Source of the DNA: Dermatophagoides farinae
Lineage: Eukaryota > Arthropoda > Arachnida > Sarcoptiformes > Pyroglyphidae
Assembly: GCF_024713945.1 (NCBI RefSeq)
Contig: NC_134683.1
Span: 1,354,501 to 1,418,500, forward strand
Reading direction: 5' to 3'
DNA length: 64,000 nt
Shown in pieces: positions 51,659 through 55,902 of the stretch. Each line of letters opens with the position of its first letter. Within the stretch, counting starts at the first letter, position 1. A program made the translations under genes and the position numbers. The notes under the pieces were generated by a model. That model made no database searches, was not told where the DNA came from, and worked only from the letters and a program-made list of their open reading frames with translations.

Positions 51659-52794
51659 ATGGAATCATCAAAGGCAGCTACAGCCAATTCGAATGGTGAA
51701 CATTGTATTATACAACGGCCATCATCCGAATCTTTATCATCAAATCCATCGAAGATTAATGATCATAAAATGATTATTACAATACCCGATGGTGCTGAAC
51801 AATTACCCTTTCAGATTGCTGGCCATTGTTTTGGTAAAAGTAAACATAAATGGGGTATATTGAAACATTCCCAATCTGGTGATATATTGAAACCTATTTT
51901 TGATAAAAGAAGTCATCGTGAACAATTATTCTATGAGAATATAATCAATGATGATGATAATGATAAAGACAATGGCTGCTTGAAAATATTACAAAAATTG
52001 GTGCCTCATTACAATGGTTTATTCCATGATGATCATATGAATATTGATTATATCCGTCTAGAAGATATTACTGCCCATATGATAAATATTTCATTATTAG
52101 ATGTTAAAATTGGCTATATTACTTATGATCCTGAAGCAAGTGAAGAAAAACGTCGTGCTGAAATGAGTAAATATAAATATGCAAAAGATCTTGGATTTCG
52201 AATATTAGGAATGAGAGTATGTTTGTTCTACTTTGTTTGTTTTGTTTTTTTTAATTATTCGAATTTTTTCTATTTTTTTTTTTTAGTATTTCGATAGTAC
52301 AACCAATGAATTTGTTGATAAAAATCGTGAATATGGATTACAGATAACACCGGATAATGCTTCCAGTGGTATGTGTTTTTTAAATATCAATCAAGAATTT
52401 CGATTTTTAATCCGCATTTTTTTCCATCTTTTCCTCAATAGCATTTTTATTATTTGCTCAAAATGATCCCAATATATTACAACAATTTGATAATCAATTG
52501 TCCGAAATTGAACATTGGTTCACAAAGCATAATATACGACGATGGAAATTTCTATCATCATCCATATTGTTTGCTTGTGGTGAAAAAACAATCAACACCA
52601 ACATTAACAATGATGATGGCCATAATAATAATAAACGTAAAACAATTGTCAAAATGATTGATTTTGCACACGTGTTTCCAAATGATGACCAAGAATTGGA
52701 TGAAAACTATTTATTCGGCCTAGGTAAATTACGTTTTCATATAACAGATGCGATAAAGATTTGTGAACAACAACAACAACAACAATCTAAATAA
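51659..52794 (+). CDS. IPMK: Inositol polyphosphate multikinase
   Basis: Phosphorylates inositol phosphates (IP3 to IP5) in the nucleus and cytoplasm. Three exons, 51659-52216, 52287-52368 and 52442-52794; 330 residues. Start ATG 51659 (MESSKAATANSNG). Family blocks: PFQIAGHCFGKSKHKWGILK, LKILQKLVPHYNGLF, YIRLEDITAHM, LLDVKIGYITYDPEASEEKR, LGFRILGMR|YFDSTTNEF, SSSILFACGE and VKMIDFAHVFPND ending in YLFGLGKLRF. The DFAH Asp and the Asp/Lys of the kinase signature are present. However, the first residue of the PxxxDxKxG motif is Ile (residue 144) in place of Pro. The C-terminus ends in a Gln run. The last 49 bases of coding sequence and the 3' flank are repeated at 54658-54988. Confidence 0.93.
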
Positions 52795-53078
52795 ATGAAA
52801 TATATATGTGTATGGGCTGCAGCAAAAAAAAAAAAAAATGAAAAAGTTTTTTTATTTTAATTATAGAATATTGCCACAAATTGAAAAGACAAAAAAAATT
52901 ATTTTTAAAAATGAAAAGATTAAAAAATTGAACATGATCAATTTGTTTGTTTTTTTTTGGTTATGTTCCAAGTAAATTTTGTTCTTTTTTTTTGTATGTT
53001 CATCAGATAAAATAATTCCTAAAAATTGAAAAAGGTCATTATTACTGCGTTTCAATTGGAGCAAAAATAAATTGGTTT
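52746..53078 (+). repeat. Direct repeat copy A: IPMK 3' end and flank
   Basis: 333 bases beginning AGATGCGATAAAGATTTGTG inside the last IPMK codons and running through the stop to ATTGGTTT. Copy B at 54658-54988 matches nearly base for base, with small indels in the CAA, TA and poly(A/T) stretches. This copy is attached to the intact gene. Confidence 0.93.
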
Positions 53079-53080
53079 TG

Positions 53081-53225
53081 AATTTTGAATTCTGAATTTA
53101 TTGTGTTAGGTTGGGTTTGTTATTTTCTGGATTTTGAATTTTGAATTCTGAATTGATTGTGTTAGTTTGGACTTGTTATTTTCTCGATTTTGAACTCTGA
53201 ACTGATCGTGTTAGGTTGGATTTGT
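53081..53225. repeat. Tandem repeat, period 56 then 49 bp
   Basis: Three diverged copies of a unit with GAATTTTGAATTCTGAATT then TGTGTTAGGTTGG and TTTGTTATTTTCT. The GTTAG cores lie at 53105, 53161 and about 53210. The third copy lacks seven bases. Confidence 0.75.
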
Positions 53226-53300
53226 CATTTGTGATGTTGATTGTTGCAAATTTGTCGACACAATATTTTTTTAATTTAATATTTATGTTGGTGATTTGGT

Positions 53301-53363
53301 GGGCCGCACAAAAAGTTGCAATGGGCCGCATGCGGCCCGCGGGCCGCAGGTTGCCGACCCCTG
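53301..53363 (-). mobile_element. hAT-type transposon terminus (fragment)
   Basis: Read on the minus strand from 53363 it begins CAGGGGTCGGCAACCTGCGG and continues as GGCCC/GGGCC-rich DNA. CAGGGGT-type ends with a GGCCCGCGGGCC core are typical of Buster/Charlie-like hAT DNA transposons (recalled knowledge). It is strikingly GC-rich for this window. Only this end was recognised; no partner terminus or transposase was found, so it is a relic or a non-autonomous fragment. Confidence 0.65.
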
Positions 53364-53463
53364 GTATAGGGCATCTTATAACTTCGTTGTGATGAATACA
53401 CGATATGTGATGTTTACACATATTTAAAGATGTATAATTTTTTTCACATTCTTGATATGGGCA
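53364..53463 (-). pseudogene. Zinc-finger fragment, copy 1 (truncated by hAT end)
   Basis: About 100 bases nearly identical to 53606-53703. On the minus strand the frame reads GCPYQECEKNYTSLNMCKHH, then IRCPIP, and then runs straight into the hAT terminus at 53363, losing the NCEKVYM continuation present in the other copy. A start codon exists upstream (53484) but the product would be a chimera. I regard it as a broken duplicate. Confidence 0.6.
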
Positions 53464-53526
53464 ACCACGTGTTTTTTGTTGCATTGATTTTTTTGTATTA
53501 TGATTAAAAAATTTCTTTCTTGATTA

Positions 53527-53814
53527 TTAAAAAATAAAACCATTTTTAAACGTGATTATTATCTCCTGATCCTTAATCCTTAACATATATACCTTTTCAC
53601 AATTCGGTATAGGGCATCTAATAAGTTCGTTGTGATGAATACATGATATGTGATGTTTACACATATTTGAAGATGAATTTTTTTCACATTCTTGATATGG
53701 GCATGAAAATCTATGACGAACATGCCTATAAACTGAGGTTTGATGGCTGAATGATTTACCACAACCCGATATCCGGCAGGAAAACCGTATGTTAGTATGT
53801 ATTATATATTTCAA
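53527..53814 (-). CDS. C2H2-type zinc-finger protein fragment
   Basis: A 95-residue minus-strand frame. The Cys/His pattern is CRISGCGKSFSHQTSVYRHV with a following Arg-His (C-x4-C-x12-H-x3-H, a classical C2H2 finger), then CPYQECEKN...MCKHHISCIHH and CPIPNCEKVYM, which look like two more fingers with irregular spacing. It probably binds nucleic acid. It sits inside the insertion island, has a partial second copy next door and has no recognisable partner exons, so it may be a captured or transposon-borne fragment rather than a working host gene. I do not recognise the family member. Confidence 0.45.
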   Translation of the reverse strand: MKYIIHTNIRFSCRISGCGKSFSHQTSVYRHVRHRFSCPYQECEKNSSSNMCKHHISCIHHNELIRCPIPNCEKVYMLRIKDQEIIITFKNGFIF

Positions 53815-53880
53815 ACAATAATCTAATAAAAGAATTGTTTGTTATTTGTTGATCAAGTACAACAGCAGTACATTTGAGTC

Positions 53881-53931
53881 ACAAACGGAATTGAGTCCAA
53901 AACGGAATTGAATCCGAAACGGAATTGCAAC
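53881..53931. repeat. Three tandem 17-bp units
   Basis: ACAAACGGAATTGAGTC, CAAAACGGAATTGAATC and CGAAACGGAATTGCAAC, each exactly 17 bases and sharing the AACGGAATTG core. They are followed by a small ACTGAG-TTG-CTCAGT hairpin. Confidence 0.85.
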
Positions 53932-54657
53932 GTGTGACTCACTGAGTTGCTCAGTCAATCACTCAACACAAAAAACACGCACACACATAGGCACCATTCT
54001 TATATGACGTACTCAAAAAAAAAAAAAATATGAGTCGACCAAAAATCATCATCATCATCATTAGTACCATTGGCACATTCAATTATCGTTTGATGAATAT
54101 TTTTGTTTAACAAAAAAAATTGTTTTTTTTATAAGTTATCCTTTTTGATAATTTTTTTGAAAATATTGATTTTGTGGTCAGCGTCTAATCTTTTGTCTTT
54201 TCGATTTACTCAATATCCTGTCATTAAACAACGTCACCAAAATTTTTTCTCTCTGTGTGTTGTGCGTTTAAATTATTTTGGGTAAATGACAAATCCAAAC
54301 TGAATTTGAATTATTATCGGCTATTGTAGCGTTTGATTTGGTTTTTTTACTATTTATTTACCAGGAGAAAAATGCAAATGTTTGACAAATAATAATCAAA
54401 GAATTTTTATTCATTTATTGTGTTATGAATTGTGACAAGACAAATAAAATTTGAGAAAGCAGAAAAAAATACTATTGACTAATCTATCTATCTATCTTCT
54501 ATCTTCTATTCTATTATGACGCTTAGGATGTCTGTAACTGCAATTTTTATACTTTGCAAGTGCTTGCACTGTGTACTGGCACTGTGTATTAACTTGGCAT
54601 TTGATGCAAAGAAACTCAGCCCCGCAGGGCTAGAATGGAGGAGGCGCGAAGCGATAA

Positions 54658-54988
54658 AGATGCGATAAAGATTTGTGAACAACAACAACAACAATCTAAA
54701 TAAATGAAATAATAATATATATGTGTATGGGCTGCAGCAAAAAAAAAAATGAAAAAGTTTTTTTATTTTAATTATAGAATATTGCCACAAATTGAAAAGA
54801 CAAAAAAAATTATTTTTAAAAATGAAAAGATTAAAAAATTGAACATGATCAATTTGTTTGTTTTTTTTTTGGTTATGTTCCAAGTAAATTTTGTTCTTTT
54901 TTTGTATGTTCATCAGATAAAATAATTCCTAAAAATTGAAAAAGGTCATTATTACTGCGTTTCAATTGGAGCAAAAATAAATTGGTTT
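54658..54988 (+). repeat. Direct repeat copy B: partial IPMK 3' end
   Basis: 331 bases duplicating the last codons of IPMK (reading AIKICEQQQQQSK then stop) and the 3' flank. It is orphaned: the upstream kinase sequence is absent and is replaced by a GC-rich junction. To its right lies the unrecognised gene at 55073. Confidence 0.93.
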
Positions 54989-55072
54989 GATTCAAAAAAA
55001 ATTTCCTAGAAGACGACGTTTTTTTTGTTGTTGTTGAATAACAAAAAAATTCAGCCAAAATTTTTCAATTGG

Positions 55073-55902
55073 TCAATTGATTAGCCAGAAATCTAGATCC
55101 AATTCACGGCTATAAGGCATAATCGATTGATTTGCTTTTGGACATGGATGATCCAAATGATAAAGCCATGTACGACCATTATTATAATCATTCAATGATA
55201 ATTTGAACATTCCATTTGACAATGATGATGATGCCGACAACGACGATGATTTAGTTTGACGATGAAAATTTCGGCTCCAATGACGATAGAAATCATTTTC
55301 ATAATAATTTTCTAAAGTTGATGATGATGAGGACAAATAAATTGGTTGATCACAGTTGGTATTATTATCATCATCATTATTGTTCAACAATTGTGTAGCC
55401 ACCATCATATCGGTATTACGTATGTAATCCAATATCTCAATATCATCGGAAATTACCGTCGTTTCATGATCATAATCATCATCATCATTCATATTCGAAT
55501 TTTTCTGTTGTTGCTGTTGTTCATCATGAAACGATTTGATTGTTCGTTCAATTTTAGCCGGAATATCATCGACAGCCATTTGAATTTGTTTTAAAGCCAG
55601 ATTTAATTTTCGTAATTCTTCAACAATTTCTTTTTGAAAATCATCCGTTGTTGTTGTTGTTGTTTCTGTCGTCGCCATTGTCATTGTTTTGGATTGCAAC
55701 GAATTCAGTTGTTTTCGTTGTATATAACGATCATATATTAGTTTAGTCACTTCCATTGGATCATCCCATGAACTGCTGGTGTCCAATGAAGTGAAATCAT
55801 TTTCATCAATCGATGATGACTGGAACAAGAAATAATGGGAATCATTTAGTCATTTTTAAGAATAATTTTAAAGAATAAACTTACATCCTTAATTGTGCAC
55901 AT
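55073..55902 (-). CDS. Unrecognised acidic protein with central coiled-coil-like segment
   Basis: Two exons: 55902-55885 (MCTIKD, then a GTAAGT donor) and 55819-55073; 254 residues. I do not recognise the family. The N-terminal half has an acidic Ser-rich stretch, WDDPMEVTKLIYDRYIQRKQ, and a helical segment (EIVEELRKLNLALKQIQMAV) likely to form a coiled coil. The middle is low complexity (Gln, Asp, Asn, Ser runs). The C-terminus (WLYHLDHPCPKANQSIMPYS, ending FWLIN) is not repetitive and looks structured. No signal peptide or membrane segment. An ORF of this length with a short spliced first exon and strong donor supports a real gene. Its stop lies 85 bases from the duplicated IPMK tail. Confidence 0.6.

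Follow-up and report, generated by a model that had tools for sequence, protein, structure and literature searches.

A duplicated IPMK 3' end around a transposon-rich island in Dermatophagoides farinae, most likely left by error-prone DNA synthesis

How did the 3' end of a mite gene come to stand twice, in the same orientation, on either side of a stretch of transposon-rich DNA? The locus lies in the 64,000-nucleotide stretch of Dermatophagoides farinae DNA that we analysed (the window), and an earlier note on this DNA had described it as an insertion island flanked by a partial duplication of an IPMK gene. We refer to the first copy as R1, to the second as R2 and to the ~1.58 kb that separates them as M. 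Our analysis points to a recent rearrangement of an already known type as the most likely origin of R1-M-R2, which would be the trace of error-prone DNA synthesis rather than a novel mobile element.

The duplicated end of the IPMK-like gene

The IPMK-like gene occupies 51659..52794 on the plus strand, with exons at about 51659-52216, 52287-52368 and 52442-52794, its splice sites and stop having been read from the sequence by eye. Exons 1 and 3 match the Pfam family IPK (PF03770) with E-values of 1.2e-11 and 9e-15, respectively. The frame of exon 3 closes with a TAA at 52792-52794, inside R1, and hence 52746-52794 is coding, exactly the 49 coding bases that the earlier note had assigned to the repeat. 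R1 (52746..53078, plus strand, 333 bp) consists of these last coding bases and the 3' flank of the gene, including an AATAAA at 53066, while R2 (54658..54988, plus strand, 331 bp) runs into a presumed native downstream flank, GATTCAAAAAAAATTTCC.

The repeat is real and, as claimed, in direct orientation, with 1912 bases from the start of R1 to that of R2. Global alignment of 52746-53078 with 54658-54988, the comparison that the earlier note had proposed, gave identity at 324 of 324 aligned bases and not a single mismatch. Five indels, 16 gap bases in total, are all that separates the copies, and each falls in a simple repeat or homopolymer (one in a run of CAA, one in an AT/AAT run, one in an A-run and two in T-runs). 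In the window, R1/R2 was the sole direct repeat to pass our filters (blastn with 20-base seeds, length ≥120 bp, identity ≥90%, spacing ≤8 kb). A stricter scan (length ≥150 bp, identity ≥95%, spacing more than twice the length) over 76,207 bases of loci of at least 4 kb from the same genome, the present locus included, recovered this pair and no other. When R2 plus its downstream flank was used as a query against the whole 62.4-Mb assembly (62,435,336 bases), three places were found, namely R1, R2 and a 33-base match to a portion of the flank; neither a third copy of R nor an empty site, that is R without M, was found in this assembly. A 29-base stretch of R had no match in prokaryote and viral collections, as expected of collections that are not meant for mites.

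The event had also been called recent, and it probably is. Zero substitutions in 324 aligned bases place the divergence of the copies below 0.92% (95% limit). For a D. farinae assembly that is presumably the one used here (62.43 Mb, scaffold N50 of 7.11 Mb, 10 pseudochromosomes), excerpts of PMC11074847 give a heterozygosity of 0.52%, at which zero differences in 324 bases has a probability of 0.18. The age of the duplication is compatible with ordinary allelic differences and the duplication may be polymorphic; with copies free of substitutions at this heterozygosity, the event may still segregate, and an allele with the empty site could be found.

Pieces that make up the island

That M is unlike its surroundings holds for its content, which is one of repeats and gene fragments, but the contrast in G+C is modest (0.38, 0.31 and 0.32 in three parts of M, 0.29-0.30 in the flanks, 0.22 in R). 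The view of M as an insertion element did not hold. M is a nest, not one mobile element: a mosaic of a truncated hAT-like end, zinc-finger pieces, a dispersed repeat and a cut mini-Helitron, bounded on both sides by truncated transposons. Since both edges are broken transposons, neither the hAT nor the Helitron is likely to have mobilised M.

At the left edge, 53076..53363 (minus strand) is a truncated hAT-like end composed of ~50-bp subterminal array units and the terminal repeat CAGGGGTCGGCAACC (minus strand), which is found only once in the window, at 53349-53363. Among the best candidates in the same genome, seven other loci carry this end at 89-93% identity. We scanned 11 stretches of the genome for the exact terminal repeat (two of them, L002 and L016, being the same locus); both ends were present in six, one end in two and none in three, and all six relatives having both ends are flanked by identical 8-bp duplications. 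In the relatives listed the array extends further upstream, and the piece in M is broken within an array unit. The terminal repeat and the 8-bp duplications of the relatives thus liken this piece to hAT transposons, known here from their ends and not from a transposase, whereas M itself has one truncated end only. Insertion of M as a hAT element was rejected, as there is a single terminal repeat and a duplication of 330 bp instead of 8 bp. The hAT-like family (contigs C4 and C5; L013-L016, L022, L023) measures 1.6-2.7 kb and carries its ~50-bp subterminal array units in both orientations; of 320 matches in the genome, those listed, a part of them, were mostly to array units. The identical 8-bp flanks of its copies suggest fairly recent activity of this family.

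Adjoining the hAT-like end, 53364..53463 (minus strand) contains the first copy of a C2H2-like zinc-finger gene fragment with a C2H2-like reading frame, 85% identical to a copy at C7:942 kb and 85-90% identical to copies at C7:1262 kb. The GTATAGGG at its start is possibly one half of a hAT target site. A dispersed repeat at 53458..53576 is 96% identical to C5:2824550 and C4:2150606, and further pieces of the zinc-finger locus follow at 53586..54469 (minus strand), akin to C7:942-947 kb, though with gaps and deletions and, at one point, an altered order. The pieces at 53364-53463 and 53586-54469 together resemble zinc-finger-like regions of one contig, at C7:942-947 kb and C7:1261-1263 kb. Their C2H2-like identity is suggested by the reading frame and by Pfam matches to zf-C2H2_aberr (4.4e-4) and zf-C2H2 (0.0077), both under the curated cut-offs. 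Piece by piece, substitutions against C7:942-947 kb range from 0/42 and 1/186 up to 16/108 (0-15%). The nearest kin found for these gene pieces are the regions C7:938000-947999 (L009) and C7:1258000-1264000 (L010), which are zinc-finger-like and contain internal repeats.

Helitrons start with TC at the 5' end, finish with a hairpin and CTRR at the 3' end, and insert between A and T with no duplication. At the right edge of M, 54483..54653 (plus strand) is the remnant of a mini-Helitron, in which a 5' terminal region is fused to a 3' terminal region that is broken inside the 3' hairpin; a TCTA microsatellite blurs the 5' boundary, and 54483 is an outer bound. A query with this remnant listed 45 matches, itself included, about 40 of them to the 5' part at 73-91% identity. 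By reading, TCTA follows A at 13 of the 18 listed 5' ends of the relatives; at the remaining five, microsatellites or a local repeat obscure the boundary. Ten 3' ends were listed, and in all nine with a flank CTGG is followed by T; the search motif itself ended in CTGG, so that only this T counts as a test. The terminal hairpin folds strongly in the family (z of -4.45) but not in the truncated remnant (z of -1.11), because the latter retains only three bases of the second arm beyond the loop.

In their 5' TCTA, 3' hairpin and CTGG before T, the relatives of this piece are like Helitrons, known here from their ends and not from a helicase; the remnant in M differs in having no 3' terminus. Insertion of M as a Helitron was likewise rejected, given the missing 3' terminus, the extension of M far upstream of the 5' end and the 330-bp duplication. 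Copies of the family with both ends (among L033-L053, on several contigs) measure ~1-1.6 kb, run from TCTA after A to CTGG before T and have the strong terminal hairpin. At one place on C7, several Helitron 5' ends stand in a row (L038/L041/L045).

The genome search for M that the earlier note had called for brought up relatives of the separate pieces, at 73-98% identity, and no contiguous donor. Among the 40 of 75 candidates that were scored, no long match to M was found besides the locus itself, and three internal junctions of M, with as many as 3 mismatches allowed, each occurred once in the whole assembly, at this locus. The donor may therefore have been lost, be unassembled or belong to another haplotype, or M was built at this place, earlier or in the same event. 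We favour the first of these readings, with M already put together in such a donor when the event took place. Divergence from the relatives is 3-15% for most measured pieces; two, however, nearly match C7:946-947 kb (1/186 and 0/42 substitutions), so that not all of M is equally old. Part of M may have been copied from there at about the same time, and several template switches may have occurred in one event.

Joints, order of events and competing accounts

At the left joint, R1 ends in TTGGTTT and the array reads CTGGATTTTGAATT, with TTT common to both within a longer, imperfect likeness. At the right joint, the Helitron reads ...GAAGCG and IPMK ...GATGCGATAAAGAT, with GCG common to both. Here an extra copy of an 11-bp unit, GCGATAAAGAT, precedes R2's own and forms a tandem at the joint (54651..54661, plus strand); the first GCG of the unit is common to the Helitron hairpin and IPMK. 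Microhomologies of at least 3 bp occur at 8.7% of random joints between the same partners on the left and at 3.4% on the right, and the microhomologies alone are therefore weak evidence. The exact 11-bp tandem is, in our judgement rather than by calculation, harder to ascribe to chance, and we read it as slippage or a templated insertion at the joint. With the joints taken into account, the host segment copied is 52750-53078 (329 bp), the GCG at 52750 being the first IPMK base after M.

What is observed in the assembly is the order R1-M-R2, two copies without a single substitution, a broken transposon at either edge of M, the shared TTT and GCG, and the 11-bp tandem. We put at roughly 55% the probability that all this goes back to one recent event of repair or replication, namely a FoSTeS/MMBIR-like or polymerase-theta-assisted cycle of templated insertion, and not to transposition. 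A 3' end would have come off its template within the 3' flank of IPMK, at TTGGTTT, and annealed to a donor rich in transposons, M, of which ~1.58 kb would have been copied up to a stop in the strong terminal hairpin of the Helitron. It would then have returned to IPMK via the GCG at 52750, with one slip of 11 bp, and copied R again, continuing into the native downstream flank. R would be present twice around M because the re-entry lies 329 bp upstream of the exit. In favour of this course, the hAT and Helitron pieces are both cut, and R with the downstream flank is found nowhere else in the assembly; against it, no contiguous donor of M was found, microhomologies of 3 bp are weak, and the ancestral adjacency of R2 and GATTC is inferred. 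The results support the earlier note in that the duplication is a long host duplication and no transposase target-site duplication, as well as in naming template-switch repair as a route. Two other routes that it had named, unequal exchange and integration of a circle, fared worse: both need R and M to have been neighbours elsewhere beforehand, and the assembly showed no such arrangement.

Template switching with short microhomologies near DNA transposons is described in animals in excerpts of PMC8277862. Cycles of templated insertions, as PCAWG presents them in the excerpted PMC7025897, and FoSTeS/MMBIR share with our locus a foreign segment between re-replicated host copies, joints of short microhomology and a small slippage-like insert, and a host segment is indeed present in re-replicated form on either side of M. 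Relative to these, the event here is in the germline of a mite, apparently used one donor segment, itself a nest of transposons, which was not found in the assembly, and its mechanism is deduced from the product only. The locus would thus be a clean, probably young germline example in a mite of a rearrangement class named in human cancers, with joints that can be read to the base and one stop inside a recognisable hairpin. It also cautions that transposon-rich islands flanked by direct repeats need not be mobile elements. One may go further and suppose that Helitron terminal hairpins are preferred points of template switching here, recurrently joining broken Helitrons, along with debris from upstream of them, to the ends of host genes and duplicating the host end; we consider this decidedly improbable. 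If true, it would give rolling-circle elements a transposition-independent route to reshape genes, and the hairpin stop, a single case, is the only part of the locus of possible wider interest.

Tandem duplication with filler through staggered-break repair was reportedly described by Vaughn and Bennetzen in 2014. At our locus, opposed nicks ~330 bp apart would have left overhangs that were filled in, and the ends would have been joined around a captured 1.58-kb fragment ('patch-mediated' repair), giving the same product of R, filler and R. We regard this as unlikely but credible. Breaks whose ends protrude are reported to give tandem duplications in excerpts of PMC5730883 and PMC8355091, both of which refer to Vaughn and Bennetzen's work in rice, and the 11-bp unit fits polymerase-theta end joining; duplications made by theta are larger and more frequently show microhomology according to PMC8355091, which would suit this locus. 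What our locus has in common with these cases is the direct duplication at a break; here the two copies enclose foreign filler. The size fits less well, 329 bp with a 1.58-kb filler as against the short duplications (<100 bp) in the same excerpts of PMC8355091. Such repair also requires a free double-stranded filler of 1.58 kb and leaves the stop inside a strong hairpin to chance. The finished product itself cannot distinguish an R that was copied again, as in template switching, from one that was filled in.

An assembly fault, in which merged haplotypes or contigs caused R to be written twice, appears improbable. The assembly described in excerpts of PMC11074847 was made from ~3,000 pooled mites, with PacBio Sequel subreads assembled by Falcon, WTDBG2 and Flye, merged by Quickmerge and polished with Illumina reads. 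If it is the one used here, this would count in favour of a fault, as does the confinement of every difference between R1 and R2 to homopolymers or simple repeats. Both joints, however, are base-exact with microhomology, one of them with an internal 11-bp tandem, there are no Ns from R1 to R2, and no alternative contig with a single copy was found.

If instead M were native beside IPMK, R2 alone would be new, a 330-bp patch from 1.9 kb upstream put into a break at the Helitron hairpin. This would need one event and one local template, the hairpin is a plausible site of breakage, and the absence of an M donor would be accounted for. The identity of R1 and R2, however, ends at most 3 bp from the start of the hAT array, and the 3' end of R2 would have to match the boundary between R1 and array within 3 bp by chance. 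With IPMK-R-GATTC as the ancestral order the coincidence of these ends is automatic, whereas IPMK-R-M as the ancestral order requires chance, and we therefore prefer the former, with R2-GATTC as the probable ancestral adjacency, and think a native M quite improbable. An earlier tandem of R and R with later insertion of M was set aside, since the insertion would have had to occur exactly at the joint.

Bypass of the Helitron end, a route listed for Helitrons in excerpts of PMC8277862, would have rolling-circle copying run past the deleted hairpin and carry R along to a cryptic terminus, TTGG before T. The Helitron remnant stands immediately before R2, intact ends read CTGG before T, and TTGGT occurs at the end of R. 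We consider this very improbable, as bypass carries along the downstream flank of the donor, which would place a Helitron inside the last IPMK exon, while the actual joint has the GCG microhomology and the 11-bp tandem and the part of M upstream of the Helitron goes unexplained. Hardly credible, finally, is a cut-and-paste or retrotransposon insertion, a truncated IPMK retrocopy included: R does end soon after AATAAA, and eight A's come after GATTC, but both recognised transposons in M are incomplete, GATTC and not A follows R2, which speaks against a retrocopy of the IPMK mRNA, and R contains no intron by which splicing could be judged. To our knowledge, a 330-bp duplication fits no known transposase.

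3' ends of the two convergent genes

Downstream of R2, a long reading frame of 258 aa from stop to stop (55073..55849, minus strand) converges on IPMK; it had no Pfam match over the curated cut-off. The TTTATT (AATAAA on the minus strand) closest downstream of this frame is at 54762, within R2, and the 87 bases from R2 to the frame (54989-55075) contain neither AATAAA nor TTTATT. On the IPMK strand, the AATAAA lies in R1. Judging from these poly(A)-signal-like motifs, each of the convergent genes may have retained a separate copy of the 3' region that they share, which is a possible reason why the event was tolerated.
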